NCBI RefSeq assembly: GCF_003952485.1
Contig: NZ_CP034447.1
Location: 5,098,501-5,162,500, forward strand
Direction of reading: 5' to 3'
Length of the DNA stretch: 64,000 nt
From: Mesorhizobium sp. M1E.F.Ca.ET.045.02.1.1
GTDB lineage: Bacteria; Pseudomonadota; Alphaproteobacteria; Rhizobiales; Rhizobiaceae
A model generated the notes under the pieces. The model made no database searches. It had not been told where the DNA came from and saw only the letters and a program-made list of their open reading frames with translations. The position numbers and the translations under genes were made by a program. Shown one piece after another: positions 5,104 through 30,531 of this stretch. Position 1 is the first letter of the stretch. Each line of letters starts with the position of its first letter.

Positions 5104-8100
5104 TCAAATCGGCCTTGCGAGCTCCAGATACCGACACATGGCATTTGCCAGCTGCATCTGGCGAGGCGTTCGGCACTCGGCTTGGAAGAGGATCGGAGAC
5201 GACACCAGGACGCACACGCATTTCGCCCGGGACGTCGCCACATTCAAGCGGTTGAGGCTGTATAGGAACTCCATGCCGCGCGGTGCGTCGGCCGGGCTTG
5301 AAGTCGCCGTGGAATAGATGGCGATCGGCGCCTCCTGCCCCTGAAACTTGTCTACCGTACCGACCCGCGCGCCGGGCAGGCGCTTTTGGATCTCGAACAC
5401 TTGGGCATTGAAGGGCGCGATGATGAGGATGTCGTCGAGCGTGAGCGGACGAACGTTCCCGAGGCGATCCGTCCAGCAAATGCCGGCGGCGGTGACTTCC
5501 ATCACTAGGCCCGCGATTGCCTCTGCCTCTTCCGCCGAATTGCTCTGATTGCCGCTATGCGCTACGGGCAGCCACCGCAGACCCGCGCCAGACAAGCGTG
5601 TCGAGCCACTAATTAGCTGGCCCGCGAGTCCTTGGCGAGGATGGAGTTCCCCCGCGTAGAAAAGCTCGGACGTGAACCTGCAGATGTCGGGGTGCAGCCG
5701 CCACGTTTCGTCGAGGAACAGGCCGCGATCCGCCGGAATGGTTTGGGCGCCGTCGAGGATGTGGTCGAGGGCTGACACATCACAGCCGTCAGGGTGGCTG
5801 CCCTGAATCGGCTGGTCGAGCTGTTGCGGGTCACCCACGAGGACAAGCGTCTTCGCAGCCTGCGAGACGGCGAGCACGTTCGGGAGGGCCATCTGGGCCG
5901 CCTCGTCGACGAAAAGCACGTCGACCGCCTCAAAGGCGTCGGGGTGCGACCAGAGCCATGCCGTTCCTCCTCCGAGGTGTACGCCATGGCCGATCGCCGC
6001 GATGAGGTCTTCGCTGCGGCGGGCGATGGTCAGGCGATGGTGTTCTTCTTCTTCCTCGTCGGCCTTGTGACAGCACTGGAGATCGACGCCGAGGCTATCG
6101 GCTTCCTCGATGACCTTGTCGATGAGGTTCCGGATGACCTTGTGGCTGTTTGCGGTGATCCCGACCGTCTTGCCCTGCCGCACGAGGGCGCAGATCATTC
6201 GAGCCGCCGTGAAGGTTTTTCCAGCGCCCGGCGGTCCCTGGACGGGCAAGACCCCTTCACCGAGATGCCCTGCCAGCCGCAACGCGGCATCCAGCGTGCT
6301 CTCGCCGGCCTCCCTGATGAGCTGCCCGCCGACGGGAGGCGGCCGCCTCAACAGAAGATCCCGCGCGGCCTGGTACGGGCCGGGGCCTTCGATCCCGTTC
6401 GCCACAACGTGCTCGCCAATGCGGAGGAGCGCCTTCGCAATTACCTCGGCCCCCACGACCTTGTGGGCGAAAACGGCTTGAGGTTGGAGGGTCGCGCTGT
6501 CTTGCCGCTTCTTTATGTCGACCGTCCGCTCCTCAAGCGAAATCGCTGCGACTGATCCGAGCTTCTCGCCGCCGCAATTGCGAAGGTCTTCGCCACCGCG
6601 CAAGGAAGTCTCCTGCTTCGGGTAACTGTAGCGATGGATGGGCGCCCGAGCCGTTCCGCCGGCTTCCCCGACGAACACAAGCCCCGACAGCCCCGCCCGT
6701 TCGTCGAGGAGCTCTTCGGCTGATACGGCCGCAAGGCGAAAGAGCTCCCACCAGGTCGCTTTGGCTTCCCGCCGATGCCAATCCAGCAAGTTGGCAAGCA
6801 GCCAACGCGCCTGCTGCTCTTCCGAGCGATCGGCAGGATCCTCAGGGATCCCTTGCAGAAGCTGCTCGATAACGGGAGCGATGCGCGCAAGCCAGGCGGC
6901 GACGTTCTCGTTCGGGGCGCCGTCATCCCCGCGTGCGGGCCGTGGGATATCCACGTCGGCGGCGATGAAATCGGCCCGTCGATCCTCCAGCCATGAGCGG
7001 AGGGCAGCCGTCGAGAGGCAGTCATCCTCGTTGTAACCTCGCACGGCCACACGGGTTTCCTCGCTGATGGACGTGGCATCGCCGAGCTCGAGATTGGCCT
7101 GAAAATTCGTGAGCGCGCTGTTCGCCTCCGGGAGCGGCACTTGCCTTGCGAAGCCATAGAAAGGTTCAAGACGCTTGATGGAGTAGCTCTCGACGCTGGC
7201 GCGAATGGCATGGCGAACCACCGAATAGAGGTCGACGAAGAGCTCCGCGCGTAGCATCCGGTCAATTTCGTCTTCTCGCGTGCCGTACCTCCCCATCAAG
7301 CGCTTGAGGGCCGCTGGCTCATATGGCGCGTAATGGTAGATGTGCAGGTCCGGATGCATCTCCCAGCGCGCCATAACGAAATCGACGAACCGCTCGAAAG
7401 CCTGCCGTTCTTCAGCGCGGCTTAAAGCCCACTCGCCGCGATAGACGCTTTGGCGCTGTTCGTCGCTGAACAGGTAGCCGAAGAGATATTCGAGGCCGTG
7501 CTCTCCCACGAATGGATCACCTTCGAGGTCCAGGAAGATGTCGCCGTCCGACGGTTCAGGAAGGCGCGCCAGTCCGAACCCCGGCTCGATCTCAAGCATC
7601 TCGAATCTTCGCGTTCCGGTTTCCCGGGCCTCGACCTGTATGCGCGCCTGTTCCCGCACGCGGTGGTAAGAGCCGACCGACCCGCGTTCGGGACGCCAGG
7701 GAAGGGGGAGGGGGAGCGCTGCTATGCCCGCCATCGTCGAGGCTCCGTGAAGCGCGAACTCGTTGCTCTGCACTTTCGTGACGCTCGCAATCAGGGAGGG
7801 ATGGTCGTCCTCTCGCCTCTTGCCATCGCAAGTGTCGTGCCAGCGGCAAATGTCGCAATGAGCGGTCGGGTCGGGATACGTGGCTGGGACATCCTCCTGC
7901 TCGAGCGACTGCTCGAACCGACGCTTCGCCTGGCGATAGTAGGCCGCATAGTCGGCGAAGCGGAAAGTCTGCGGCAGGAAATCGGACCACGGGGCGACCA
8001 CATGCATGTGATCCGGCGCTAGGCCTTGCGCCTGCTCCAGCAGGTCAGAATAGAGGCAGAGCTGGAGCACCGTTCCCGCTTTGGTTTCCCGTGCGAGCTT

Positions 8101-8541
8101 GGTATCGAGCACCTCGTACGACCAGGAGCCAAAGTTACTCGGCTTCTCCACACGCCGCAGGATGTCGGCTCGACCGCCCCAGCGACCGTGGCGTAGCGCT
8201 CCCTGGACGATGACGTCGGTGCCTGCTGCCATAGACCGGAGGGTCGCTGCAACGGCTGCGTCGGAGATATCGACGCCAACGATTCGTGTTGTCTCCAATC
8301 CGCTGTCGATCAAATGCTGCACGAAGTTCCGTTCATGCACAGCACCGCGCTCCCGCAGAACTTCCAGTTGCGGGTCCCAGTAGGTTGGCTTTGCGAGCTG
8401 TCCCTCCGCAACGGCCCGGTCAAGGACGCTCAGATGATGGCAACTTAGATGGCCTACCAAGTCACTCGCGCTAAGTCGAAGTTCGCCTGCAACCAGCTGC
8501 ATACCCGCGTCCCCCATTGCTGCTGCGGAGCCTATTTCCAT
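5104..8541 (-). CDS. TM0106-family RecB-like nuclease fused to superfamily 1 helicase
   Basis: A 1145-residue multidomain protein. Residues about 25-270 are a PD-(D/E)XK nuclease of the TM0106/Cas4-RecB type: GGRADILRRV, then YEVLDTKLARETKAG (D..K) and QLCLYSDLL, ending in a cysteine cluster HCDICRWHDTC. Residues about 335-520 are an RNase H-like exonuclease fold (DIFLDLEGDPF, YHYAPYEPAAL). The C-terminal half is a Dna2/UPF1-type helicase: Walker A GPPGAGKT near 768, Walker B DEAAQ near 877, GDPQQL, and VDKFQGQE..SRAK near the end. Such proteins process DNA or R-loops and are common in defence islands. It is divergent from the TerB operon, sharing a 264-base intergenic region. Confidence 0.88.
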   Translation of the reverse strand: MEIGSAAAMGDAGMQLVAGELRLSASDLVGHLSCHHLSVLDRAVAEGQLAKPTYWDPQLEVLRERGAVHERNFVQHLIDSGLETTRIVGVDISDAAVAATLRSMAAGTDVIVQGALRHGRWGGRADILRRVEKPSNFGSWSYEVLDTKLARETKAGTVLQLCLYSDLLEQAQGLAPDHMHVVAPWSDFLPQTFRFADYAAYYRQAKRRFEQSLEQEDVPATYPDPTAHCDICRWHDTCDGKRREDDHPSLIASVTKVQSNEFALHGASTMAGIAALPLPLPWRPERGSVGSYHRVREQARIQVEARETGTRRFEMLEIEPGFGLARLPEPSDGDIFLDLEGDPFVGEHGLEYLFGYLFSDEQRQSVYRGEWALSRAEERQAFERFVDFVMARWEMHPDLHIYHYAPYEPAALKRLMGRYGTREDEIDRMLRAELFVDLYSVVRHAIRASVESYSIKRLEPFYGFARQVPLPEANSALTNFQANLELGDATSISEETRVAVRGYNEDDCLSTAALRSWLEDRRADFIAADVDIPRPARGDDGAPNENVAAWLARIAPVIEQLLQGIPEDPADRSEEQQARWLLANLLDWHRREAKATWWELFRLAAVSAEELLDERAGLSGLVFVGEAGGTARAPIHRYSYPKQETSLRGGEDLRNCGGEKLGSVAAISLEERTVDIKKRQDSATLQPQAVFAHKVVGAEVIAKALLRIGEHVVANGIEGPGPYQAARDLLLRRPPPVGGQLIREAGESTLDAALRLAGHLGEGVLPVQGPPGAGKTFTAARMICALVRQGKTVGITANSHKVIRNLIDKVIEEADSLGVDLQCCHKADEEEEEHHRLTIARRSEDLIAAIGHGVHLGGGTAWLWSHPDAFEAVDVLFVDEAAQMALPNVLAVSQAAKTLVLVGDPQQLDQPIQGSHPDGCDVSALDHILDGAQTIPADRGLFLDETWRLHPDICRFTSELFYAGELHPRQGLAGQLISGSTRLSGAGLRWLPVAHSGNQSNSAEEAEAIAGLVMEVTAAGICWTDRLGNVRPLTLDDILIIAPFNAQVFEIQKRLPGARVGTVDKFQGQEAPIAIYSTATSSPADAPRGMEFLYSLNRLNVATSRAKCVCVLVSSPILFQAECRTPRQMQLANAMCRYLELARPI

Positions 8542-8723
8542 TCCCTGTCGTCAATAAACCCTAGCGGGAGAAACTTTCGCCACGTAGCGGCACACGGAAG
8601 CCGCAAGATAATGGGATGCGTGGTACTCGCGTGGTCGCCACGCAGCCCTATTGTCCGGCTCTCTTTTGCGGTGATGACCAAGGAAGGTGCTCTTCGTCAT
8701 CGAAGTTGTTTGCCGTCGTTAGC

Positions 8724-8741
8724 AATCTTCATTCGAAGATT
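8724..8741. promoter_or_regulatory. inverted repeat in the divergent promoter region
   Basis: AATCTTC and GAAGATT are perfect 7-base arms around ATTC, 65 bases before the TerB gene and 183 from the nuclease-helicase gene. A dyad placed like this is a candidate operator for the divergent pair, though no regulator gene is obvious next to it. Confidence 0.35.
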
Positions 8742-8805
8742 GTCCGATACCCGCAGACCATGCCATGATATCGACGTAAAATCCTGAGGGTCCGGGGGGA
8801 CGACT

Positions 8806-11163
8806 ATGGGCTGGTTCCTGATCGGCGCGGCGTTGGTTGCGTGGCTGATCTATCGGGGAAGCAAGCAAAATCTCGCGGAGGCGACACCACAGAGGTTGCG
8901 CCAACCTGCTGCGGAAAGGCTTGCTTCGAAGAACGATCGCGCTGACCCCCCGAAGCAGCCTTGGCAGGACCCTCGATCTCACCCCGACAGGCGCTTCACT
9001 GATGGAAGCAACCAGTGGGAACGGCGCCCGGTCACGGCTAGCATGCTCGCAGGCGATAGCGGCCGCCAGCCCAAGCTTCCGGCGAAATGGATAGCTTCTG
9101 GAGAAGGCGTTCGGGTGGCCGGAGTCTCAATCAACTCCGGCATGTTCTATCTCGGCGGATCCTTCGCCGGAAAACCCGGTGCAGAAAACTGCCTGGTTGA
9201 TCCAACTTGTCAGGTCGGCTCCATAAGAGGTGACCCTGAAGGCAACACGTTGCCTTATTGGCCATCATATCATTCGATCTCCCCGGGGGCGCGCCGGACC
9301 TACCTCGAATGGCTTGCAGGGGGCAGGAACGATCCTTCGATCGGCATAGGCTACATTTTCATATTCTTCTATGGCCTCGAACGTCGTCTCTTCATCGACG
9401 AGGCGAGGAACGAGGCGTCGGCGATGGCAGCGGAGGTCCGGCGCCTTCTCGCGCTCCATGGCGAGAACTACTCCTTTAAGGGCTACGCGTCGAAGTTCCT
9501 GGACGTGGCGGATTTGATGGCGAACCCGGACATCTCCCGCCCGGCACTCTCGCCGGATCTGAGGAGCGGCTACGAGATGCCGCTGTCCGTAAGGCTGCAT
9601 CTCGGACGAAAGCTGGGCTCCAAGCTTCCTTTCGACAGCACCGACGCGCTTCTGTGGGTATTGTCCCTTCCGGACACGCAGCTCCGCACGCCCGCATCCA
9701 GATGCTTCGAGGAACTCGCCGAACTGTGGCACGTGCGGTTCGCGTCGCGCTATCCGGACGGGCTGAAGGTCAATTCGCCAAGGACCAAGATCAAAGTCGA
9801 ATACAGAGCGGCGAGCGGAGGCTTCGGGGGCAGGGTGGACCTGTCGGATAGCGAGCTCGGACCGCTTCCCGATGTCGCTGCCCTTTCCGCGCCAATCGAT
9901 GGACTGAGAGACCTTCTCAACGCCTGTACCGACGAGCTTGCCGCCTACAGCCGTCTTCTTGGGAAGAAACCTGAGGCAAAGGACACCGTCGAGGCAGCTT
10001 TCCTGTTGCCCAAGGAGATCCTGACGTCCGGCTCGGGGACCGGAGCCGCGGCGCTCAAGCGCGTTGACGGTCTTTTTGGCGATCACAGGATCGCAGGGGT
10101 CAAGGTGGCGCGACTGGCGCAAGCCCTGGGAATGGAAATCCCGCCCAAGGGAAAACTCGGCGCCGGCCTGTGCAACCAGATCGGCGCCTTGATGGACAAG
10201 CTGGATGTCGGGTTCGAGCCGGACCGCAGGTACGGCTCGCGCGGCCTGGAAGCCGACGGCTATATCCTGCTGTTCAAGGCGAAGGAAGGAGCGCCCGTGG
10301 ACGGCGAGTCCGCCGCCTATGGTGCCGCCAGAGCGATGGTGGAGGTGGCGGCGCTGGCAGCCGTTTCCGACGGAAAGGTCGAGCCCAGCGAATTCGAGTC
10401 GATCAAGGCGGACATCCGTTCGTTCCCCGGCGTGGGCGGCGTCGAGCGCGGAAGGCTCATGGCGTACGCCAGCACGCTTCTCAGGGACCCGGCAGCGCAG
10501 CAATCCGCCATCAAGAAATTGGGCAACATCGGTGCGGATGCCCGTGCCAGCGTCGTCCGGGCGGCCTTGTCGGCAGTCCTGGCGGATGGCCACGCGGCTC
10601 CTGACGAGGTCAAGTTCCTCGAGCGGCTGTACAAGGCGCTCGGCTACCCGGTGGACGATCTGTATTCCGCCCTCCATCGCGGGTCGGTCGCGTTGGACGA
10701 GCCCGTCGCCGTCGCTCCGGAGACGCGGGCAACCGGCGTTCCGATCCCCGCGCAGCCTCCTGCATCCCCCTCGGGCGGTGTCAGGATAGATCATGGTCGC
10801 CTGGAGCGGATCAAATCGGAGACCTCGGCCGTGTCGGAGCTTCTCGCGGGCATCTTCATCGAAGAGGAGCCGACAGCCTCTCCGCCTCAGGTCAGGGAAC
10901 CTGTAGCTTCGGAAGGGAAGTTCGCCGGTCTCGATGGCGCTCATGCCACGTTGCTGAGCCTTCTGGCCGAGAGCGGCGGACTTGACCGGCAGGCGTTCGA
11001 AGACGAGGCACGGAAGCTTCGGCTGTTGCCTGACGGAGCGATCGAAACGATAAACGAATGGGGCTTCGACAGGTTCGACGAACCATTAGTCGATGGCGAC
11101 GAACGCGTTTCGGTCGCCGAGCATCTCAGGGACAAACTGCAACAGGTGAGGGTGGAAGCATGA
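8806..11163 (+). CDS. TerB-N / TerB / TerB-C domain protein with N-terminal membrane anchor
   Basis: A 785-residue protein starting after GGGGGGA. Residues 1-18 (GWFLIGAALVAWLIY) form one membrane helix, followed by a polar linker. TerB-N spans about 93-300, marked by VSINSGMFYLGG, RRTYLEWLAGGRNDP and the FYGLERRLFID motif. A TerB helical domain lies near 504-628 (AAVSDGKVEPSEF and LSAVLADGHAAPDEVKFLE, each acidic-rich, metal-binding type). A TerB-C domain occupies about 705-785. TerB-N/TerB-C proteins are known from tellurite-resistance and defence-type contexts and are thought to sense signals at the membrane. It overlaps the BrxD-like gene by four bases, so the products probably act together. 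Confidence 0.87.
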   Translation: MGWFLIGAALVAWLIYRGSKQNLAEATPQRLRQPAAERLASKNDRADPPKQPWQDPRSHPDRRFTDGSNQWERRPVTASMLAGDSGRQPKLPAKWIASGEGVRVAGVSINSGMFYLGGSFAGKPGAENCLVDPTCQVGSIRGDPEGNTLPYWPSYHSISPGARRTYLEWLAGGRNDPSIGIGYIFIFFYGLERRLFIDEARNEASAMAAEVRRLLALHGENYSFKGYASKFLDVADLMANPDISRPALSPDLRSGYEMPLSVRLHLGRKLGSKLPFDSTDALLWVLSLPDTQLRTPASRCFEELAELWHVRFASRYPDGLKVNSPRTKIKVEYRAASGGFGGRVDLSDSELGPLPDVAALSAPIDGLRDLLNACTDELAAYSRLLGKKPEAKDTVEAAFLLPKEILTSGSGTGAAALKRVDGLFGDHRIAGVKVARLAQALGMEIPPKGKLGAGLCNQIGALMDKLDVGFEPDRRYGSRGLEADGYILLFKAKEGAPVDGESAAYGAARAMVEVAALAAVSDGKVEPSEFESIKADIRSFPGVGGVERGRLMAYASTLLRDPAAQQSAIKKLGNIGADARASVVRAALSAVLADGHAAPDEVKFLERLYKALGYPVDDLYSALHRGSVALDEPVAVAPETRATGVPIPAQPPASPSGGVRIDHGRLERIKSETSAVSELLAGIFIEEEPTASPPQVREPVASEGKFAGLDGAHATLLSLLAESGGLDRQAFEDEARKLRLLPDGAIETINEWGFDRFDEPLVDGDERVSVAEHLRDKLQQVRVEA

Positions 11164-12479
11164 CGGCTTCGACGACTATCAAGACGCGGGATCGCGACGC
11201 CATTCTGCAGGCGCTCGCCGCCGGGGTCGTCCCCAAGACGGGACTTCGTCATGTGCAGGTGGGCCGCGCGGCCGAGGTGGGGGCTCTGGTCCGCGATATC
11301 GACCGCATCTGCGATGGCGGAGCCGCGATCCGTTTCGTGATCGGAGAATATGGGGCAGGCAAGACGTTCTTCCTCAACCTCGTGCGCCTGGTTGCACTCG
11401 AGCGCAAATGCGTCACGATCCATGCCGACCTCGCGCCGGACCGCAGGATTCATGCGACGGCAGGCCAGGCGAGGGGACTCTATGCCGAAGCCGTCAGAAA
11501 CATGGCGACGCGGACCCGGCCCGACGGCGGCGCACTGCCGAGCGTGGTCGAGCGCTTCGTGACGGACTGCATCCAGGAGGCGGGACAAGCGAGTGTACCT
11601 GTCGAGCGCATCATCGACCAGCGTCTCGCGCACCTGCAGGAACACGTCGGCGGCTATGACTACGCGACGGTGCTGAAGGCCTACTGGAAAGGAGGCGAGG
11701 AGGGCGACGAGGTCCTCAAGGCCTCGGCCCTCCGGTGGCTGCGAGGAGAGTACTCCACGAAGACAGAGGCGCGCCAGGCGCTTGGCGTCCGCAACATCAT
11801 CGATGACGACAACGTCTATGATTCCCTCAAGCTGCTGGCAGCGTTCGTGAAGCTTGCAGGATACGCTGGACTGTTCGTCGTCTTCGACGAAATGGTGAAC
11901 CTGTACAAGCTTCAGAGCGCCCAGGCTCGCAACCAGAATTTCGAGCAGGTCCTGCGCATGCTCAACGATGTGCTTCAGGGCAATTTCGGCGGCTTCGGTT
12001 TCGCGTTCGGCGGCACGCCGGAGTTCCTCATGGACACCCGCCGGGGCCTTTACAGCTACTCCGCCCTGCAGTCCCGCCTTTCCGAGAATGCGTTTGCGAC
12101 GAGCGGCCTGGTCGATCTTTCCGGTCCGGTGCTGCGCCTCCAAAGCCTCACGCCCGAGGACCTTCTGATCCTTCTTTCAAATATCCGAGGCGTGTTTGCC
12201 TCCGGCGACCCGGCCAAGAATCTCGTTCCGGACGAAGCCCTTCCAGCGTTCATGGAGCATTGCAACAAGCACGTCGGCGACGCCTACTTCAGGACGCCGC
12301 GGAACACGATAAAGGCGTTCGTGCAGTTTCTGGCAATCCTTGAGCAGAATCCTGGAACCGAATGGGCGAGCCTGGTGGGCGGCGTCGATATCGCGCCGGA
12401 TGCCGAAAGCTCTTCGGCGGACGAGAGCGAGGGCGAAACCGCGGGTGGGGATGAGGATCTTGCCACCGTCAGGCTCTGA
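11160..12479 (+). CDS. BrxD-like ATP-binding protein (DUF2791 family)
   Basis: A 439-residue P-loop ATPase. Walker A is GEYGAGKTF near residue 60; Walker B is LFVVFDEMVNL near 240; VQVGRAAEV near 37 and a long helical C-terminal half match the DUF2791 family, whose best known member is BrxD of BREX type 2. The start is ATG 11160, overlapping the TerB stop as ATGA, better than a longer frame from 11058. BrxD partners the BrxHI helicase, and here the helicase gene follows with a 29-base overlap. No pglX methylase, pglZ phosphatase or pglY is in the window, so this is not a standard BREX locus. The acidic tail (about 420-437) is notable. Confidence 0.85.
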   Translation: MTASTTIKTRDRDAILQALAAGVVPKTGLRHVQVGRAAEVGALVRDIDRICDGGAAIRFVIGEYGAGKTFFLNLVRLVALERKCVTIHADLAPDRRIHATAGQARGLYAEAVRNMATRTRPDGGALPSVVERFVTDCIQEAGQASVPVERIIDQRLAHLQEHVGGYDYATVLKAYWKGGEEGDEVLKASALRWLRGEYSTKTEARQALGVRNIIDDDNVYDSLKLLAAFVKLAGYAGLFVVFDEMVNLYKLQSAQARNQNFEQVLRMLNDVLQGNFGGFGFAFGGTPEFLMDTRRGLYSYSALQSRLSENAFATSGLVDLSGPVLRLQSLTPEDLLILLSNIRGVFASGDPAKNLVPDEALPAFMEHCNKHVGDAYFRTPRNTIKAFVQFLAILEQNPGTEWASLVGGVDIAPDAESSSADESEGETAGGDEDLATVRL

Positions 12480-14682
12480 AGCGCCCTCCGGATTCGACAG
12501 GCTTCACGAAACGATCCGGCGCTGGATCTGGGAGCGTAAGTGGGAGGAACTCCGCGATGTCCAGGACAAGGCGATCGCCGCGATCCTGGGCGGCGGGAAC
12601 GACGTCCTGATCGCGGCCGCCACGGCGGCTGGGAAAACGGAAGCCGCCTTCTTGCCAATCCTGACGAAAGTGGCGGCGCGGACGGAGCCGGGAGTGTCGG
12701 TGCTCTACGTGAGCCCGCTCAAGGCGTTGATCAACGACCAGTTCCGGCGCCTGGACGACCTCTGCGAGCGAATGGAGATCGATGTCGTCCGATGGCATGG
12801 GGATGCGCCGCAAGGTGCCAAGCAGCGGACGAGACGCGATCCGCGCGGCGTGGTCCTGATAACTCCGGAATCCATTGAGGCGATGCTCCTGCGTCGTCCT
12901 GGCGATGCGAGGAGGATGCTGGGCACGTTGGACTTCATCGTCATCGATGAACTGCATGCCTTTCTGAGCGGGCCGCGCGGCCTCCACCTGGCGACCTTGC
13001 TGCGGCGGCTCGATGCCTTGTCCGTGGAACCAGCAAGGAGGATCGGGCTGTCGGCCACGATAGGCGACCTGTCCGTTGCCGCCGGCTGGCTGAACCCGGC
13101 ATCGCCATCGTCCGTTTCGATCGTGGAGTCCTCGGCCGACGCTCCTGAGCTAAGGCTCCAGGTGCGGGCGTACGCGGATGGCGAGGACGCCGAAGAGATC
13201 GACGGGCTGGAGGCGGAGGAGAAGCCAGTCGCGCTCGACTTCATCGCCGACCATATGTTCGCGACGCTTCGCGGAGCGAACAACCTTGTATTCGCCGGGT
13301 CGCGTAGGCGCGTGGAAGCCCTGGCGGACAGATTGCGGACGCGATCCGAGAATGGCGGTGTTCCGAACGAGTTCTTTCCCCATCATGGCAGCCTCTCGAA
13401 GGAATTGCGCGAGGAGCTCGAAGACAGGCTGAAGCAGTCCAACCTGCCCACGACGGCGGTCGCGACGACGACGCTGGAACTCGGCATCGATATCGGATCG
13501 ATCAAGTCCGTGGCCCAGGTCGGGGCGCCGCGATCCCTCGCGTCGCTTCGCCAACGTCTGGGACGCAGCGGCCGGCGGCGCGGCGTTCCTGCAATCCTTC
13601 GCATGTACGTGCGGGAACGAAATCTCGGACAGGATTCCGACCCACTCGATCATCTGAGGCTGGAGACGGTACGTGCAGTTGCCGCCGTGCGCCTGCTCGT
13701 CGCGAAGTTCGTCGAGCCACCTTCCGTCGTCGACGCCGTTGCGACGGTTGCGCTTCACCAGACGCTCTCCGTGATCGCACAGGAGGGCGGGCTGCGCGCT
13801 GATCGCCTTTTCGAGACGATATGCTCGGGCGGTCCGCTTTCCGTTTTGGGAAAGGGCGACTATGTCGATCTGCTGCGCGGCATGGCTTCGGCGGACAATC
13901 GGCTGCTGGAGCAGGCGCCTGATGGTACCGTCATGCTCGGTGAAATCGGGGAGCGGCTTACGGCTGGCCGTGACTTCTATGCCGTGTTTTCGACGGACGA
14001 GGAGTGGCGGATCGTCTGCGGCGGGCGAACGCTTGGCGCCATCCCGATCTCGAACCCGGTCGCTGTTGGAGTGGTGATCGCGTTCGCCGGGCAGCGCTGG
14101 CGCATCGCATCGGTGGACGACCGCAGCAAGGTGCTCGAGGTCGAGCGGCATCGGTCCGGAAAGATTCCTCAGTTCGACAACGTGATGAGCGAACCCGTCC
14201 ACGACAGGCTATCGGCCGAGATGCGGGCGGTGCTGGAAGGTGACGACGTTCCAGCGTATCTCGACATGGCCGCCGCCGACTTCCTGCGCCAGGGGAGGGA
14301 AGCCTATCTGGAGCTCGGATTGCGGCAGACCCGATTCCTGCCGGCAGGGAACGATACGCACGTCCTGACCTGGAGAGGTACTGAAGCCAATGCCGTTCTC
14401 GCCTTCACGCTGGTTTCGGCAGGTCTTGAATGCGCGCCGCACGAAGTGGGCGTGACAGTTCTGGAGACTACGCCTGAAGAAGCCGAAGCGGTCCTTCGCC
14501 AGGTAGCCGAGCGCCCACCAGATATTCAGTCCGTTTCGGAGTTCGTCGAGAACCTCGAGACGGCGAGGTTCGACGGAATGGTCCCTGAGCCACTTTTGAG
14601 AAGGCTATGGGCCAAGGCGCGCGCGAACATAGGGAAAGAGATCGGGGCGGTCGCGGGAGGATTGTTCGATCAGCACGGCTGA
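12451..14682 (+). CDS. BrxHI / Lhr-like DEAD/DEAH-box helicase
   Basis: A 743-residue superfamily 2 helicase. Motif I is ATAAGKTEAAF near residue 57, motif II DELH near 166, motif III SATIGD, and the second RecA domain carries HHGSLSKELREELE, TLELGIDIG and LRQRLGRSGRRRG. This order and the Lhr-type spacing match BrxHI helicases. The chosen ATG at 12451 has GGGTGGGG just before it and overlaps the ATPase gene by 29 bases; upstream in-frame starts only translate the ATPase in the wrong frame. With its neighbour it forms the BrxD-BrxHI pair typical of BREX type 2, here without the rest of BREX. Confidence 0.87.
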   Translation: MRILPPSGSEAPSGFDRLHETIRRWIWERKWEELRDVQDKAIAAILGGGNDVLIAAATAAGKTEAAFLPILTKVAARTEPGVSVLYVSPLKALINDQFRRLDDLCERMEIDVVRWHGDAPQGAKQRTRRDPRGVVLITPESIEAMLLRRPGDARRMLGTLDFIVIDELHAFLSGPRGLHLATLLRRLDALSVEPARRIGLSATIGDLSVAAGWLNPASPSSVSIVESSADAPELRLQVRAYADGEDAEEIDGLEAEEKPVALDFIADHMFATLRGANNLVFAGSRRRVEALADRLRTRSENGGVPNEFFPHHGSLSKELREELEDRLKQSNLPTTAVATTTLELGIDIGSIKSVAQVGAPRSLASLRQRLGRSGRRRGVPAILRMYVRERNLGQDSDPLDHLRLETVRAVAAVRLLVAKFVEPPSVVDAVATVALHQTLSVIAQEGGLRADRLFETICSGGPLSVLGKGDYVDLLRGMASADNRLLEQAPDGTVMLGEIGERLTAGRDFYAVFSTDEEWRIVCGGRTLGAIPISNPVAVGVVIAFAGQRWRIASVDDRSKVLEVERHRSGKIPQFDNVMSEPVHDRLSAEMRAVLEGDDVPAYLDMAAADFLRQGREAYLELGLRQTRFLPAGNDTHVLTWRGTEANAVLAFTLVSAGLECAPHEVGVTVLETTPEEAEAVLRQVAERPPDIQSVSEFVENLETARFDGMVPEPLLRRLWAKARANIGKEIGAVAGGLFDQHG

Positions 14683-14748
14683 ATTCGGCCGTTGCAGAAA
14701 GAAACCCCAGCCTCGATCGCGAGCAATCGCATTAGGAAGCGTGGCGCC

Positions 14749-16674
14749 ATGTCGGGGATGGAGCGAGGTAGCAGCGAAGAAATTGTGGGCGCTCGGCGGG
14801 AGACTCCGATCACCCTTGCCGAATTGGTGTCTTGCACAGCGGACGGCAAGCGACTTGTCGCGGAACTCATCGACACAGGTTTGCCAGTCCATATCGATGA
14901 TGTTGAATCAGGTCTTGCATGCCGATGCGTTTGCTCTGGTTGTGGTAGGCGCGTGATCGCGCACAAGGGACCCTATAGGCGACATTTCCAGCATGCGGCC
15001 GAAGCGGATGGGGCGACCTGCAGTTCCGCAGGCGAGACTGCGCTCCACAAGTTCGCCAAGGAGACACTTCAACGGGCACTCAAGTTGCGACTAGAGGGCC
15101 TGACGGAGAGCGATGGCCGGCACTCAGTTGTAGTGGTGAAGGAACAAGAGTTCGAGTTCGACGACGCCGTGCTCGAAAAGCGGGAAGGTGACATCGTCCC
15201 TGACGTGGTCTGCCGGAAAGGAGACCGCATTCTCTATGTCGAGTTCAAGGTCACGCACGGTTGCGACTCGGAGAAGCTGGAGAAACTCAGGCGCCTGGGC
15301 GTGGGTGCGATTGAGATCGATCTTTCCCGTTACCGGGACTGCCCGCTGGCGGAGCTCGGGAACGCAATCCTGACTGAAGCGCCACGGGTCTGGCTCCACA
15401 ATCCAAAGATTCCAGCTGCCAGGAACCGACTGGCGGAACTTGAGCGCGAGAGACTGGCCGCCATTGATGAAAAGGCGCGTGAGCTGCTTGCAAAGCTACC
15501 GACGTTGCCGGGTCCGGCCAGCACGGTGGGGGCGTGGGAGGAGGCCGCAGCCCTGCGTGGCCTGGCGGACGCCGTTTCCCCGGGGCGGCGGGCTATCGGA
15601 TTCGCCGTGAGGGAACAGGAGTGGAAGTCCTTAGTCCTTCTGCAGTTCGGCCTGGTCGCGGAGAATGGCTTCACCGTCAAGGAAGCCTATGCGGCTATCA
15701 AGAAAGAAGGCTGGGTCGCGCGTCCTTTGGCATTCGTGAGCGACGAGGTCGCTGACGGACTGCGTCGCGTGGCCGGCGACATCGTGACTCCTTGGGAGGC
15801 ATTGGCCGAATTCATTGAGAAGATGAAGAAGGCCGGCATGCTTATGGTGTCGGGTCCAGGTCGCAGGCTCCACGGCGGGCGGTTGCTCCGCACGACGATA
15901 CGCTTCGCGATCGAGACAAGGGAACGTCCGGCCCGGCGGACAGAGGAATTGAATCAGCTCGTCGACCGAATCCTCCTGCGCGTCAGGAAGGCCCACAAGG
16001 AAAATTTCGATTTCCGCACCTGGCTCACCTCGGACATCGGCGACGGGACAATCCCGGCTGCCACCGTCGCTTCCGAAACCGAGGACAGCTTCGATCTGCT
16101 GGTGGAGAGACTCTCCACACTGAGCAAGGGCATGTCCTCGTACCCGCCTCACGTGCCAGACGGCATGACATTGGGACTTCCGGTGCTCGACGAGGTTGCC
16201 GACAGGGAGAAGTCGCGGCGCGAATCCGAAGATCGCAGGGACCGGGAAGCGGCCGAGACGGTTAAACGGGAGGCTGACGACAGGGAGTCGAGGTTGCTTA
16301 GGCCAGCAACGGCCGCGATGGGTGCGGAAGCGGCCGGAGGATGGATGGATCTCCCCCGGGACGATCTCCAGGGGGTGTCGCCCAGGGCGATGGCGCGCCG
16401 ATCCGAGGCTGACTTCTGGAAAGCCGTCGATGCACTCGACCGTTGGCGCGAAGCCCAACGGATTGAAATCGAGCGCGAGGAACTCAAGGCGGATTCCTTG
16501 GCGAAGCTTCGCAAGGCTGCCCGCGCCGACTTCAAGAGGGACGACTACGCCGACCTTTGGGTGCGGCAGCCCCACAAAGGCTTGAGCGGCACAAAGCCGG
16601 AAGAGTATTGCGTGGACGATGCTACGCTGGCTGCCTGCCTAGCTCTGTTGCCGGGTTCTCTTAGGCGCCGATGA
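14749..16674 (+). CDS. CoiA-like zinc-finger/nuclease domain protein with long helical tail
   Basis: A 641-residue protein. Residues about 15-200 resemble competence protein CoiA: CRCVCSGCGRRVIAHKG (zinc-binding cysteines), YRRHFQHA, ETALHKFAKETLQ, then IVPDVV and VEFKVTHGCDSEKLEKL, a D..ExK arrangement of the PD-(D/E)XK fold. The rest is helical and charged, with ERERLAAIDEKARELLAKL and further coiled-coil-like stretches. It follows the helicase gene after 66 bases on the same strand and is probably the fourth gene of the operon. ATG 14749 is preferred because AGGAAG precedes it; a TTG at 14692 is the alternative. A role as the DNA-cutting effector is an inference. Confidence 0.65.
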   Translation: MSGMERGSSEEIVGARRETPITLAELVSCTADGKRLVAELIDTGLPVHIDDVESGLACRCVCSGCGRRVIAHKGPYRRHFQHAAEADGATCSSAGETALHKFAKETLQRALKLRLEGLTESDGRHSVVVVKEQEFEFDDAVLEKREGDIVPDVVCRKGDRILYVEFKVTHGCDSEKLEKLRRLGVGAIEIDLSRYRDCPLAELGNAILTEAPRVWLHNPKIPAARNRLAELERERLAAIDEKARELLAKLPTLPGPASTVGAWEEAAALRGLADAVSPGRRAIGFAVREQEWKSLVLLQFGLVAENGFTVKEAYAAIKKEGWVARPLAFVSDEVADGLRRVAGDIVTPWEALAEFIEKMKKAGMLMVSGPGRRLHGGRLLRTTIRFAIETRERPARRTEELNQLVDRILLRVRKAHKENFDFRTWLTSDIGDGTIPAATVASETEDSFDLLVERLSTLSKGMSSYPPHVPDGMTLGLPVLDEVADREKSRRESEDRRDREAAETVKREADDRESRLLRPATAAMGAEAAGGWMDLPRDDLQGVSPRAMARRSEADFWKAVDALDRWREAQRIEIEREELKADSLAKLRKAARADFKRDDYADLWVRQPHKGLSGTKPEEYCVDDATLAACLALLPGSLRRR

Positions 16675-16801
16675 CCGCGACGGTGGCCAATGCGTACTCC
16701 AACAAGGGACGAAATTATCGATCGCAACAAGACTATTCGAACCGCGAGGCTGAGGCCGGTTCACGTTTCCAAAGCTTGCCGAGCGAGCGTTGGGCGGCCC
16801 T

Positions 16802-17323
16802 TCACATAGATATCTTCGCGCGATGATCGCGCATTCGCCGGGCGGCTCTCTCCGCGTCAAGCCTTCTCAACAGAGCTTCCTTGCGCCTGTCGTTAGCGGC
16901 GATGTCCGCCTCGGTTTGGGTGATCGGGCGAGCAAGGTCGGCATCGTTGTAGTATCGCCCCTCTTCGAACGGCGATTCTGGCGGCGCGAACTTCACCTTG
17001 TAGATGAGGAACCCCAACAAGCTCTCGCCGGTGAGCCGCCTGATGTCGTCGGGGAGGTATACCTCCTTGTAGGCTTGCATGAAGTCGACTCCCTGCCTTT
17101 CGGCTGATGGCTCCGGCAGTTTCTTGATTGCCAGGTCGAGCTGATCGGCAGGGATGCCGACCATGACCCGGTACGAATGCCTGGAGTTCGACACCGTCAG
17201 CTCCCAGAAAGGCGGAAACCTCGGATCGTAGAACTCGTTGCGCCGGAAGTGGACGACGAAGTTAGGAGTATGTCGGGTCCCCTCGAGGCCCTCTACCCCA
17301 TTGTTGTTGCCCCTCTGGTTCAT
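16802..17323 (-). CDS. hypothetical protein, unknown function
   Basis: A 173-residue soluble protein with no motif I recognise. It has an aromatic/charged N-terminal half (FVVHFRRNEFYDPRFPPFWE), a middle SYRVMVGIPADQLDLAIKKL, and an arginine-rich helical C-terminus (NDRRKEALLRRLDAERAAR). I start at the ATG at 17323; an in-frame extension to 17395 lacks support. It converges on the CoiA-like gene and is divergent from the dGTPase, so it is a lone leftward cargo gene. Confidence 0.5.
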   Translation of the reverse strand: MNQRGNNNGVEGLEGTRHTPNFVVHFRRNEFYDPRFPPFWELTVSNSRHSYRVMVGIPADQLDLAIKKLPEPSAERQGVDFMQAYKEVYLPDDIRRLTGESLLGFLIYKVKFAPPESPFEEGRYYNDADLARPITQTEADIAANDRRKEALLRRLDAERAARRMRDHRAKISM

Positions 17324-17543
17324 TGTTCGCCCTGTCCACTCGCTCGTCCCAGCCGTTGTCGCGGGCCCGGCTGCAAGTTTCAAAGCGACCGTCAATTCTA
17401 ACGGCGGCCCTTTCGGCAGAGTGCTTCGTCGTTCGACAAATGTCGGATGATGGCGGCAGGCGAGACCGGCTAGTTGTCACGAACCTTTTTACAACCAAAT
17501 CTGAGCTATCCCCTTTCCAGAAAATCAAGCTGGAGGGTGGGAA

Positions 17544-18956
17544 GTGAGTTCAATTTGGTCCACCGCGCGCTGGGGGCGCGCAAGTTCCCCGGATTCTGAT
17601 CCGCGAGGGTGGCGGTCGTTCTTTCAACAAGACTATGATCGACTTCTATTTTCCACGCCGGTTCGCCGGCTTGCCGACAAGACGCAGGTTTGGCCAATGG
17701 AGGAAAATGACGGGGTTAGAACCCGTCTTACCCATTCGCACGAGGTGGCCAATCTCGCCCGGTCTATAGGATCGAGAATAACGGCTGATCGTGGCAGCTC
17801 CTTCTTCGGCGCAGACCTACATACGCACGTCCAACCCGTCCTTCTGGCAATTGGATTAGCGCACGACCTGGGCAACCCACCGTTTGGCCATCAAGGGGAG
17901 GCCGCCATCGGCAAGTGGTTCTCCCAACGCTCGGATTGGATCTTCACTCACGAGATGGAGGGCCATGAAGCGCAACTGGAGAAACCAGTACCACCCCACT
18001 TACATCGGGAATTCCTCAAGTTCGACGGCAATCCACAAGGGTTCCGCCTGGTGACACGCCTCCAGACGAACGTCGATCATGCGGGTCTCCACCTAACTGC
18101 AGGTACACTCGCCGCTCTGCTGAAATACCCGGTGAGTGCCAGCAACGTCGACCCGGACCACCTGGTGAACAAGAAATTTGGATACTTTGAATCCGAACGC
18201 GAGATTGTGGATTGGGTCCGTGCCGAAACCGGAATGGCCGAAGGGGAACGTCATCCGCTCACTTGGATCATGGAGGCTTGCGACGACATCGCGTACAGCA
18301 TCCTTGATGTGGACGACGTTATGAAAAAGAAGATCATATCTCCTGATGACGTCTTGGCGATCCTCCTCCACGACCCGCGCAGCTCATCCTCCGGGGCGGT
18401 TATGAAAACCCGAGACAGGTTTGCAAATGTCCAGGCGAGCGGGAGAGACGCCGACGTGGCGCGGGACATCAAGATCGGTTACCTCCGGGCCTACCTCATA
18501 GAGGAGCTGATACAGGAGGCGAGCAAGAGTTTCGTGGCATCGTCAGACGCCATATTGGCCAAAACCCATAATACGCCGCTTATGGAGGGCGTGGCGCTTT
18601 GCAGCGCGCTCAAAGACGTGGCAAAAAAGCACGCGTTTGCAAACCCGTCTGTCCTCAAGATGGAGGCTATCGGAGCTGCGGCGCTAGACGGCCTGATGAC
18701 GTTCTTCTGGCGTTCGATCAGCGACCGAAAAGACTTTGACGACATTGCGTCACGGCGGAATGGCGCCTTGGCAAAATACGGTTGGTCCATTGTGAGTTCG
18801 AACTATATTGAAGAGGCAGGCCGAAGCGGTTTAGGCTCAGGGGACGCATCGGCGATGCGGTATCGTGAATTGCGCTTGCTGACGGATATGGTGTCGGGCA
18901 TGACCGATTCGTTCGCTTTGAAGTTGTGGAAACAGATAAAGGAAATCCCGGAGTGA
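17544..18956 (+). CDS. dGTP triphosphohydrolase family HD-domain protein (dGTPase)
   Basis: A 470-residue protein starting at GTG after GGAGGGTGGGAA. The N-terminal RLADKTQVWPMEEND and RTRLTHSHEVANLARSIG are the dGTPase signature, and LAHDLGNPPFGHQGEAAI near residues 104-121 supplies the HD pair of the metal centre; a third aspartate is in ACDDIAYSILDVDD near 250. The family hydrolyses dNTPs to nucleoside and triphosphate. dGTPases are known to restrict phage by draining dNTPs, and this one is in an island beside a nucleotidyltransferase gene that it overlaps by four bases. Function in defence is inferred from context. Confidence 0.88.
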   Translation: MSSIWSTARWGRASSPDSDPRGWRSFFQQDYDRLLFSTPVRRLADKTQVWPMEENDGVRTRLTHSHEVANLARSIGSRITADRGSSFFGADLHTHVQPVLLAIGLAHDLGNPPFGHQGEAAIGKWFSQRSDWIFTHEMEGHEAQLEKPVPPHLHREFLKFDGNPQGFRLVTRLQTNVDHAGLHLTAGTLAALLKYPVSASNVDPDHLVNKKFGYFESEREIVDWVRAETGMAEGERHPLTWIMEACDDIAYSILDVDDVMKKKIISPDDVLAILLHDPRSSSSGAVMKTRDRFANVQASGRDADVARDIKIGYLRAYLIEELIQEASKSFVASSDAILAKTHNTPLMEGVALCSALKDVAKKHAFANPSVLKMEAIGAAALDGLMTFFWRSISDRKDFDDIASRRNGALAKYGWSIVSSNYIEEAGRSGLGSGDASAMRYRELRLLTDMVSGMTDSFALKLWKQIKEIPE

Positions 18957-19732
18957 CGGTCGCAGCAGAGCAGCGGATCGTGAAGCGGAGAATGGATGAG
19001 TACCTTTGGTGGGAAAAATCCGCCGCAAACGTGCGTCTGCGCTCCTTGCTTAAGAGGCATTTCCTTGATTTCGAGCGCGTTGCGATCGTCGGCGGGATGG
19101 TCAGGGACATTGCCCGAGCCGGAGGGCGAGGATTTCATTCCGACATCGACTTGGTGATAGAGGCGCCAGCCGCCGCCGTTGCCGAGATGGCGGCAAAGAA
19201 CGGCGCTCGGCGCAATCAATTCGGTGGTTATTCCTTCGTTGAGGAGGGGTGGAAGCTGGATTTTTGGGCCTTGGAGACGACTTGGGCGGCCAGGGAAGGG
19301 CACGTCGAGGTCAAGTGTCTGGAGGACATCACACGTTGCACCTTCTTTGATTGGGATGCGATCCTTTACGACCTGAAAGAGCGGAAAGTAATCTGCGGAG
19401 ACTCCTATCTGGACGGCGTCCGTCGGGGAAAAATGGATATCTGTCTGCTGCCCAACCCCTCCTATCTCGGAAATCTGTACAGGGCTGTTCAACGGATTCT
19501 CGCATGGGATCTGGAACCGGGCCCCAAGCTGAGAGCGTTCATAGAGAAGCATCTCGACGACGATGGGTTTCAGGGCCTCATTCGAGAGGAGATCAAGCGC
19601 GGCAAACGGACTTTCCTGCCCATGTTCGGGGATGCGCAGACATTGCGTCGGTTCCTAGCTAGCAAGGACGACCGCACGCGGATCGCTACTGTGTATGCGA
19701 AACAGATGAGCCTCCCTGGGATTGCCCACTGA
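18953..19732 (+). CDS. nucleotidyltransferase with poly(A)-polymerase/CCA-type head domain
   Basis: A 259-residue protein. VAIVGGMVRDIA near residue 45 followed by FHSDIDLVIE near 62 is the GG..RD and DxD arrangement of the class II CCA-adding/poly(A) polymerase head; no tRNA-binding body or HD domain follows, so it is much shorter than a true CCA enzyme (about 400). The start GTG at 18953 overlaps the dGTPase stop (GTGA) and is translationally coupled. Its last 47 bases overlap the convergent tniQ gene. A pairing of dNTP hydrolase and nucleotidyltransferase suggests nucleotide or RNA modification in defence. Substrate unknown. Confidence 0.75.
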   Translation: MTVAAEQRIVKRRMDEYLWWEKSAANVRLRSLLKRHFLDFERVAIVGGMVRDIARAGGRGFHSDIDLVIEAPAAAVAEMAAKNGARRNQFGGYSFVEEGWKLDFWALETTWAAREGHVEVKCLEDITRCTFFDWDAILYDLKERKVICGDSYLDGVRRGKMDICLLPNPSYLGNLYRAVQRILAWDLEPGPKLRAFIEKHLDDDGFQGLIREEIKRGKRTFLPMFGDAQTLRRFLASKDDRTRIATVYAKQMSLPGIAH

Positions 19733-21659
19733 GCGATCGGGATTTTCTTTGCAGCGCTGATTTTTCATAAGTCCACATCGATTGTGACTGGCCTTCGGCC
19801 TGGTCGATCAGGTCACGGCTGTAGAAGAAGGCGCCCACGACTCCCGGATCGAGCGCTGCTTCGATGCCGGCTACGCGCAGGATCAGGCGTACTTTCTTGT
19901 GATGCATTCCGGTCTTTTGGCAAAGCTCACCAAGCGAGACGAAGCGAGACTTGAACGCCTCGGCGCTATCCCGCGAGACCACGGGGATCATCCGCCTCGC
20001 ATCGGGGCTGAATTCCTCGACGAGCGTAAGGTAGCCTGCATCGATCAACCTGCTCACAACACGCTCATGCGTACCGGGAAGGAACCCCTCTGCTTCGGCC
20101 TTGGTGAGGTTGGTGCGCATTCCGTCCGAGCGCACAAGCCTCGTTACCTCGTCGGCGTCGAGCAGCAACGCCATATAGTCATGCCTGCCGGCCAGCCGTC
20201 CTTTCCAGGCGAGCTTTCCGTTGATGATCATGTCGAGTATGTCGGGAATGGTGCAGGTGGCCGCGCGGCGCGCGTCAGTGATGTCAACTTGACGTTCGGT
20301 CGGCTCGGAAACCTCCTGGGCGCCGTCGAACAGTCGCTCCCTCAGCCGCTCGACTTCGACCTTCGAGAAGCGGCGCTTCGCGTTCCGCCTACTGCCTGTC
20401 CCGGCAAGCCCGTCTAGGTGTCCGTGAGCGACCAGTTCCTTCAGGTGAATCCGGGGAACGCCAAGCAGTCGCTCGACTTCTGGCGCCGTGAGCGCGTCTT
20501 TCAACTCGGCGACTACGTGGCTGAAGTCATCGGATGTGACGAGGATACGGTGGTCCATCACCCCTGAATGATCCGAAGCCTCGTCGACGCCCATTCGCTT
20601 GAAAAGGCGACGGATGCTCAAAGCGTGCATTCCGGAATCGCGCGCTGCGGTCCGGACGGTGTGGACTTTGCGTTTGCCCGCTGGCTGACCAAGCACGTCT
20701 GTTCCCGGCTCGATCGGCATCGTCTCGAGCGCGAACCGTCGCACGGCGTCCCGCAGCTTGGCGTAAGCCGGATCGTCAACGGTCTTTTGCAGGAGTCCGT
20801 ATGCGTAGCCATACGTGTCTCGTGGCCCCCAGACTCCGCGGGTCGAGGCCTGTCCTCGGTTGAGCCTTTCGAGGAGCTCGTTCAGGGACGCCTCGCCAGC
20901 GCTGGCGATCCGAAACCCTTCGTCGGCAGCTTGCGCCCAGTCAGATGCCGCGAACCTTGCTACCCGGACTTTCGGCGGGTGGAGCGACGATACGCCCAGC
21001 GCCTCGCAAAAAGGAGCTGCGACGTAGAGGGGGAGGTCGTCGAGCCAGTTGTCGGACAAGCCATTCCCGCACAATCGGTCTTGAATCCAGGCCTGGAAAG
21101 GGGAGGCGGCCACGGTCACAGCCTGGTCGGCCGTCTGCCGCAGGGTAGGGAACAGGTTTTCCATGGTGCTGCTGAAATCGAACGGGGCGAAGGGAGTGCG
21201 CGCAGGATTCGCCTGCGTGAGGAAGACGTCATGCCGGGGGCAGGAGCGGAAATGGGAAATGGTCCATTGAAGCCGAAGCCAGGGCCTGCTGCGGACAGGT
21301 CCGTCGTATTGGCCCATATCCTCGAGGGTGCACCGCGGGCAGTAGCGGAAGTACGTCCGGTTGACCGTCAGCCGCATGAAGGTTTCGCCTGCGACTTCGT
21401 ACAGCTTGTCGGTTTTGCGGACAGGAGTGTACCGAAGCAAGCGCACCGGGTCGGCTCGCCCGAGGAGCGCGATGTCGCTCACGGTAGCGGCGAGCCCGAG
21501 GTCGAGGTTTCGCTGCCTGATGCTCATGTCGCGAAGCAGGCTCTTCAGCGACTGGCCATTCAGCGCGGCGAGCCGTGATGCGAACCCAGCCGCCGGCTCC
21601 AGCTCTTCAAGCTGGTAGGCGAATCCTAGCGGCTCGAGAGTCCGACTGTTCAAACTCAC
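19686..21659 (-). CDS. tniQ: TniQ/TnsD-like target-selection protein
   Basis: A 657-residue protein. The N-terminal TniQ domain has YFRYCPRCTLED (near residue 105) and SHFRSCPRHDVFL (near 135), the paired zinc-binding segments of the family, plus the early GFASRLAALNGQSL. The C-terminal two thirds are long, with several helix-turn-helix-like stretches (VERLLGVPRIHLKELVAHG near 395; LGELCQKTGMHHKKVRLIL near 600), as in TnsD/TniQ proteins that read a specific DNA target. It lies two bases after tnsC in the transposition operon. The attachment site it recognises is not evident. Its 3' end overlaps the convergent nucleotidyltransferase gene. Confidence 0.85.
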   Translation of the reverse strand: MSLNSRTLEPLGFAYQLEELEPAAGFASRLAALNGQSLKSLLRDMSIRQRNLDLGLAATVSDIALLGRADPVRLLRYTPVRKTDKLYEVAGETFMRLTVNRTYFRYCPRCTLEDMGQYDGPVRSRPWLRLQWTISHFRSCPRHDVFLTQANPARTPFAPFDFSSTMENLFPTLRQTADQAVTVAASPFQAWIQDRLCGNGLSDNWLDDLPLYVAAPFCEALGVSSLHPPKVRVARFAASDWAQAADEGFRIASAGEASLNELLERLNRGQASTRGVWGPRDTYGYAYGLLQKTVDDPAYAKLRDAVRRFALETMPIEPGTDVLGQPAGKRKVHTVRTAARDSGMHALSIRRLFKRMGVDEASDHSGVMDHRILVTSDDFSHVVAELKDALTAPEVERLLGVPRIHLKELVAHGHLDGLAGTGSRRNAKRRFSKVEVERLRERLFDGAQEVSEPTERQVDITDARRAATCTIPDILDMIINGKLAWKGRLAGRHDYMALLLDADEVTRLVRSDGMRTNLTKAEAEGFLPGTHERVVSRLIDAGYLTLVEEFSPDARRMIPVVSRDSAEAFKSRFVSLGELCQKTGMHHKKVRLILRVAGIEAALDPGVVGAFFYSRDLIDQAEGQSQSMWTYEKSALQRKSRSLSGQSQGGSSVSHTQ

Positions 21660-21661
21660 GA

Positions 21662-24954: not shown

Positions 24955-25010
24955 GCCTCCCCCCTCTTGTTGTTTTTCTTTTGCACTATCAAGCTTCCGT
25001 GATGAATCGA

Positions 25011-25831: not shown

Positions 25832-25865
25832 TTCAGTTTCCCTTTCTTGTCGGCGTGCGCATGCC

Positions 25866-25886
25866 AGCGGGCGGCGAGCGCCCGCT
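25866..25886. other. perfect 8-bp hairpin upstream of the tnsA region
   Basis: AGCGGGCG pairs with CGCCCGCT around GCGAG. It lies 35 bases before the leader ATG at 25831 on the minus strand and is followed to the right by further self-complementary stretches (CGAAGCC and GACCGCTTCG near 25960). No U-tract, so an RNA structure or protein site is as likely as a terminator. Confidence 0.4.

Positions 25887-28572: not shown

Positions 28573-30531
<1,959 letters not shown>

Follow-up and report, generated by a model that had tools for sequence, protein, structure and literature searches.

Shango is a three-gene defence system consisting of a TerB protein, an ATPase and a helicase (Johnson et al. 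2023, PMC10250203). According to the passages of that paper that deal with it, Shango from Pseudomonas aeruginosa PA14 causes a modest 10- to 100-fold change in plating when cloned into PAO1, acting on many phages but not on all. These passages also cite a result on phage protection by Shango in E. coli, and describe a large helicase adjoining the system in PA14. Here, we describe a Shango locus in Mesorhizobium sp. M1E.F.Ca.ET.045.02.1.1, whose genome is one contig of 7.35 Mb (NZ_CP034447.1). The window refers to the whole analysed stretch of 64,000 nucleotides, positions 5,098,501 to 5,162,500 of that contig. In this locus, the trio SngA, SngB and SngC lies between a divergent nuclease-helicase gene of the TM0106 family and a CoiA-like gene, which stands where five close relatives carry a different gene encoding a protein of 410 amino acids (aa). 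The difference in place of the last gene and the gene set common to the five relatives, a single block in four of them, are the new part of this work, the trio itself being already known. In the open-licence literature, no paper was found that describes Shango with TM0106 and a CoiA-like gene, nor one on TM0106 with a nuclease.

Identity and layout of the Shango trio

The locus was originally predicted to be a defence system without a name, with two of its genes labelled BrxD and BrxHI. A role in defence has good support, but the core does have a name. In PADLOC, the second gene of the trio scores 578 bits with the SngB model versus 165 with BrxD, and the helicase gene scores 823 bits with SngC versus 423 with BrxHI, so that both labels give way to Shango models; the TerB protein matches the SngA model at 299 bits. 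Pfam finds TerB_N (187 bits) and TerB_C (92 bits) in SngA, with TerB between them, and DEAD and Helicase_C in SngC. All genes that define Shango are present, adjacent, on one strand and in the order A-B-C. As judged from model scores and gene order, genes 2 to 4 of the locus are Shango, a system already named and phage-tested. A remnant of a BREX system would account for the BrxD and BrxHI scores, together with the 501 bits that Pfam BrxC_BrxD reaches on SngB. However, the Shango models score far higher, NCBIfam BREX_BrxD remains at 162 bits under its cut-off of 350, and no PglZ or methylase domain occurs among the 26 window open reading frames (a subset) scanned with Pfam. Such a remnant is scarcely credible.

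The five genes, their overlaps and the gap before the last one (Table 1) are exactly as first described. The longest frame of the CoiA-like gene opens at TTG 14692, and the tabulated ATG, 66 bases past the SngC stop, is its most likely start. The single divergent promoter of the original prediction fares less well: the divergent layout and its spacer are present, but a search for sigma-70-like promoters over 8400–17600 found 0, versus a mean of 1.3 in shuffles, leaving layout as its only basis. Purifying selection acts on TM0106, SngA, SngB, SngC and the 410-aa gene. The ratio of nonsynonymous to synonymous substitution rates (dN/dS) against the five close relatives is 0.13–0.22 for SngA, 0.04–0.10 for SngB and 0.08–0.10 for SngC; it is 0.09–0.12 for TM0106 (window versus four close relatives) and 0.09–0.14 for the 410-aa gene (relative L126 versus four). 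Values of 0.04–0.22 support the view that the first four frames of the locus are genes, not chance frames; the CoiA-like gene, outside this test, has 35 homologues.

A membrane anchor at the N-terminus of SngA, as originally claimed, is plausible but weak. Mean hydropathy is 2.14 over residues 1–15, but no 19-residue peak exceeds 1.7. Among five proteins scanned from other loci, four of them SngA, the long SngA proteins (about 1140–1270 aa) of L108, L114 and L117 have a peptidoglycan-binding domain at the N-terminus, suggestive of a Shango form that spans the envelope. Both features are compatible with a putative role of SngA as a membrane sensor.

Table 1. Features of the Shango locus and its surroundings (positions in the window)
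Feature	Position	Strand	Remarks
TM0106-family gene	5104..8541	-	1145 aa; RecB-like nuclease, DEDD/RNase-H-like exonuclease domain, superfamily 1 (SF1) helicase
Divergent spacer TM0106/SngA	8542..8805		264 bases
SngA (Shango)	8806..11163	+	785 aa; N-terminal hydrophobic stretch, TerB_N, TerB, TerB_C
SngB (Shango)	11160..12479	+	439 aa; BrxC/BrxD-family ATPase; 4-base overlap with SngA
SngC (Shango)	12451..14682	+	743 aa; Lhr/BrxHI-like superfamily 2 helicase; 29-base overlap with SngB
CoiA-like nuclease candidate	14749..16674	+	641 aa from ATG; C-terminal Xre/MbcA/ParS-like region
Replaced stretch	14683..16845		Window-versus-relative homology breaks here; 410-aa gene behind SngC in relatives
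197-aa gene	16802..17395	-	Common to L126 and L152; right-hand marker of replaced stretch; no PADLOC match
HD-domain protein	17544..18956	+	PADLOC dGTPase, 230 bits
TniQ, TniB, Mu-type transposase (TniA)	19686..24954	-	Tn7-like transposition set
FtsH-like AAA/M41 protease	28573..30564	-	Also matches defence ATPase IetA, 85 bits

The shared block and its last gene

SngB is present in 14 of 146 same-genus genomes, the window's own included. Five close relatives (L126, from genome G486; L152, from G901; L153; L156; L160) all possess TM0106, SngABC and a PD-(D/E)XK-like gene of 410 aa, and their SngB proteins are 95%, 91%, 94%, 97% and 96% identical to that of the window, respectively. Over 5115–14683 (L153 to 14655), a stretch that takes in TM0106 and Shango, the window is 85–92% identical to L152, L153, L156 and L160. 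In L126, where TM0106 and the start of SngA lie on another contig, identity is 91.6% over 9518–14682, and the sequences then differ. The other four match one another between positions of about -9573 and about +1324, counted from the SngC stop, an interval that holds TM0106, SngABC and the whole 410-aa gene. This shared block of 10.9 kb has the same ends in three settings, and flanks are common to L156 and L160 only.

Homology to the window stops at 14682/14683 in four relatives and at 14655, 27 bases before the SngC stop, in L153. It resumes in two of them, at 16825 in L152 and at 16846 (to 17285) in L126. The 410-aa gene begins 90 bases past the SngC stop in L126 and at +91 to +97 in the other four, a position occupied in the window by the CoiA-like gene. 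At 85% DNA identity, L152 is further from the window than any other of the five. It possesses the 410-aa gene, and so does each of the closer four; replacement in the window lineage is thus the simplest reading of these alignments. Moreover, the window and L152 share the downstream Tni region (82.6% over 19821–26460), which indicates that the difference in the last gene arose within one related element.

The TM0106 protein scores 265 bits with TIGR03491, against a curated cut-off of 97.45, and also matches RNase_H_2 and AAA_12. In an alignment of 10 proteins, D146, K148, Q160 and Y164 are invariant, as are D338, E340, D437 and D507, the Walker A (769–775) and Walker B (879–883) motifs, and the cysteines C229, C232 and C238, with C34 nearly so. 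This cysteine pattern resembles that of the iron-sulphur nucleases AddB and Cas4.

The 410-aa protein has 3,156 homologues among 8,000 candidates scored, and its family is not specific to Shango. Residues D76, E90, K92, Q106 and Y110 are invariant in 26 sequences. Its predicted structure, with a mean predicted local distance difference test score (pLDDT) of 81 and a predicted template modelling score (pTM) of 0.53, places strands at 62–70, 73–80 and 86–93, followed by a helix at 99–114, and we take the placement of the invariant residues to be that of PD-(D/E)XK enzymes. Foldseek ranks 9 to 11 are EndoMS and a related repair endonuclease (probability 0.99–1.00, E 0.03). Only weak matches to DUF4268 (Pfam) and PDC-S11 (PADLOC) were found.

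Profile comparison detects no relation between this protein and the CoiA-like protein (probability 0.2%), and searches by sequence against solved structures yielded no significant match. Among the 35 homologues of the latter (P0001), 2 bear a competence-protein or CoiA name; by precomputed annotation, 6 contain PF25164, taken here as the CoiA-like domain, and 19 contain PF09722 (Xre/MbcA/ParS, DUF2384). The window protein matches no CoiA model and almost nothing in Pfam, PF09722 scoring 18.3 bits against a cut-off of 24.5. Two very close homologues, P0004 (97%) and P0005 (92%), are both from Mesorhizobium, and their genes may likewise stand behind Shango; Mesorhizobium sp. VK23B and M4B.F.Ca.ET.049.02.1.2 are strains with close homologues. 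D171, E184 and H189 are invariant in an alignment of 20 sequences. The AlphaFold model (mean pLDDT 86, pTM 0.50) has a helix at 113–129, strands at 172–176 and 179–186, a helix at 193–202 and a strand at 205–210; D171 lies just ahead of the first strand and E184-x-K186 inside the second. We take this core topology to match that of PD-(D/E)XK nucleases. Matches of the model in the PDB include Hjc, RecU, HincII and Bax1, and also DtxR/MntR regulators and SfsA. The predicted alpha/beta core is consistent with a PD-(D/E)XK fold, and the protein is a nuclease candidate.

Occurrence of the partner genes across loci

In the following counts, absence means absence from the fetched DNA, and many loci stop at contig ends. 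The 66 Shango loci comprise the window and 65 others, at least two plasmids being represented by two loci each (L107/L151 and L108/L161). Among 33 loci of an earlier collection (L098–L130), SngA and SngB are found in all and SngC in 31, the exceptions being L130 and the short contig L105; the order A-B-C is the same in all 31 complete loci, with SngA about 5 kb apart in L110. The co-occurrence test proposed with the original prediction gives a mixed result: the trio stays together widely, TM0106 joins it only in the window's genus, within one shared block, and the CoiA-like gene only in the window. Neither TM0106 nor the CoiA-like gene appears in any of these 33 loci. Among the 65 others, TM0106 is present in five (L152, L153, L156, L158 and L160), all from the window's genus, and the CoiA-like gene in none, being joined to the trio only in the window. 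TM0106 as a general Shango partner is rejected on this basis.

Matches to TM0106 at E 1e-50 occur in 63 of 72,556 plasmid records. L158 has a less closely related Shango (73% DNA identity), followed after 1.9 kb by TM0106 on the other strand, and on a plasmid of Mesorhizobium sp. AR02 the TM0106 gene lies about 15 kb past the end of SngC. TM0106 and Shango thus meet more than once in the genus, which may reflect either a functional link or shared islands. Matches exceeding 600 bits are present in 19 of 129 same-genus genomes (one partial, one with an internal stop), and 8 of these 19 also have SngB, five of them carrying the same block; the two draws, of 129 genomes here and of 146 for SngB, may overlap only in part.

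A genome scan with the 20-sequence CoiA-like alignment gave 78 loci, one with TM0106 (L076) and one with TniQ, TniB and TniA (L020). SngA, SngB and SngC were found at none of them in the fetched DNA (up to 10 kb on each side). Together with the 65 Shango loci above, this leads to rejection of the CoiA-like gene as a general fourth Shango gene. A CoiA-like relative (E 0.001) is present in 25 of 146 same-genus genomes, the window's own included, and the best-scoring one outside it shares 35% identity over residues 40–655. In Mesorhizobium sp. B2-7-2 (L076/L198), TM0106 stands head-to-head with a distant CoiA-like relative, with no Shango in the fetched DNA. Separately, loci L024–L030 and L044 have the same CoiA-like relative and the same neighbouring frames as far as their contigs reach. 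They are labelled Rhizorhabdus, Bradyrhizobiaceae, Hyphomicrobiaceae, Afipia, Sphingorhabdus and Bradyrhizobium, and several are metagenome bins; such sharing could stem from a mobile element crossing orders or from shared contamination.

The genes standing close behind SngC, and co-directional with it, differ in type. Nuclease genes or candidates comprise the CoiA-like gene of the window, the 410-aa gene, an AddB-like PD-(D/E)XK gene (L102), an SbcD-like gene (L125) and, by annotation, a DUF4297 gene (L170). Other genes in this position encode AraC (L129), HD (L167) and NTase-HEPN (L154) proteins and two unclassified ones (L117 and L163). Genes next to Shango were called by a simple codon-score script, so some calls are wrong; L099 and L100, for example, have annotated nuclease genes that the script missed. 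Clustering of SngB at 90% merges independent cases (L102 with L170; L154 with L155 and L108).

Further observations concern the wider surroundings of Shango. Behind Shango in L099, L100 and L102, from three bacteria whose SngB is divergent, lies a pair of genes for an AddB-like PD-(D/E)XK protein and a UvrD-like helicase. In 4 of 42 clusters (L114, L155, L170 and L175), a metallophosphoesterase/exonuclease and a large AAA ATPase form a pair in the vicinity of Shango; the pairs of L170 and L175 are SbcCD-like by annotation, and another such pair lies directly behind SngC in L123/L125. In the plasmid collection, SngB matches at E 1e-60 are found in 680 records, among them 449 from Klebsiella and 144 from Salmonella, and 540 are typed as conjugative. 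A search of phage records at E 1e-40 did not turn up any SngB match.

Interpretation and comparison with known systems

On balance, the more probable reading is a Shango operon, beside Tn7-like genes, from a lineage of Mesorhizobium in which its companions are a divergent TM0106 gene and a last gene directly behind SngC, the CoiA-like gene having replaced the 410-aa gene in the window and the extra genes supplying or reinforcing cutting. Under such a scheme, SngA, held in the membrane by its N-terminus, would report infection; the SngB ATPase and the SngC helicase would engage incoming or replicating phage DNA; and TM0106 and the last gene, if they act with Shango, would supply or reinforce DNA cutting. 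This last step is the least certain, since the three PA14 genes protect P. aeruginosa by themselves (PMC10250203, in the passages on Shango). A bolder version regards the locus as an extended five-gene module, in which a membrane TerB sensor, an ATPase and a helicase are combined with the divergent nuclease-helicase and an exchangeable nuclease cassette that selection has swapped as a unit. Beyond this lineage, Shango might borrow different nucleases, since DUF4297, AddAB-like, SbcCD-like and other genes are found behind SngC elsewhere among bacteria. This version is doubtful.

A number of observations weigh against the preferred account. TM0106 is not seen in 60 of the 65 other Shango loci (in L126, the contig ends), and it occurs without Shango in the fetched DNA at 16 further loci (L142–L147, L191–L196 and L198–L201). 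The replacement of the last gene in the window is one event, L156 has the 410-aa frame in a shorter form of 351 aa, and SngA is broken in L160. The CoiA-like protein is called a nuclease candidate only, because the would-be catalytic lysine is not conserved (Lys in 11 of 20 sequences, Met in 6, Phe in 2, Ala in 1) and because no PDB match reached E 0.001, neither for this model nor for that of the 410-aa protein; for the latter, Foldseek puts PprA, secretion chaperones and an uncharacterised protein, not nucleases, in its first eight places. Of 35 usable Shango clusters, only 8 have a close co-directional gene behind SngC (-60 to +150 bases); upstream of SngA, a wider interval (-200 to +250) contains a near co-directional gene in 10 of 36. 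By our own reading, 3 of those 8 clusters have a DNA nuclease or candidate behind SngC, which is suggestive, not proof, and falls short of establishing a general nuclease slot. As a control, eight proteins upstream of SngA were scanned, five of them from the 10 counted clusters: the matches were PIN (below cut-off), an SF1 helicase, GntR, SnoaL and ABC-3C, and three proteins had none.

The main alternative is a plain Shango beside unrelated defence genes, in which the trio needs no partner, one defence island carries TM0106, the dGTPase and the CoiA-like gene as separate passengers, and the block is a sign of recent common ancestry. It agrees with the sufficiency of three genes in PA14 (PMC10250203), with the loci holding TM0106 or CoiA-like genes apart from Shango, and with the fact that, Shango genes aside, 4 of 42 clusters is the most in which any one family (frames of at least 150 aa) is found. 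A dGTPase-like gene also lies nearby: the HD-domain protein of Table 1 is possibly a second phage-defence gene of the island, in which the transposon genes of the original prediction are indeed present; no convincing terminal repeats were found as transposon ends. Against this alternative, the ends of the block stay constant in three settings while the flanks differ, and the block genes are under purifying selection. We regard it as a serious contender, though the less likely one.

At the other extreme, a new, unnamed system needing all five genes would explain why five relatives hold a set of five genes arranged in the same way. However, the trio is named and protects alone in the PA14-derived tests (PMC10250203, in the passages on Shango), the fifth gene differs between the window and its relatives, and the families of the first and fifth genes are mostly seen without Shango, which renders this option very improbable.

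Near-identical Shango operons that differ in their last gene offer a natural pair with which to test the use of partner nucleases, and the same pair can show whether a change of partner shifts which phages are stopped. Such a comparison is relevant as the passages on Shango in PMC10250203 give no explanation of how the system stops phages, and Pfam finds no nuclease domain in SngA, SngB or SngC here.

Compared with described systems, the locus is closest to Shango, with which it shares the three genes, their order, the overlapping starts and the top model scores; it differs in adding the divergent TM0106 gene and the last gene behind SngC, neither of which belongs to the three-gene system as the passages of PMC10250203 present it. 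BREX type 2 is similar in its ATPase and helicase families (BrxD and BrxHI), but the window scores far lower on these, with BrxD below cut-off. The likeness to Mokosh (MkoA/MkoC) lies in the SF1 helicase part of TM0106 (residues about 872–1139, 122 bits). Only that part matches (872–1139 and 937–1135 of 1145), whereas the N-terminal half is the TM0106 RecB-like nuclease, and the protein is not a full-length MkoA or MkoC. Finally, the window protein resembles the CoiA family in its Cys-rich N-terminus and nuclease-like core, and differs from it in its length of about 640 aa and in having an Xre/MbcA/ParS-like region at its C-terminus.

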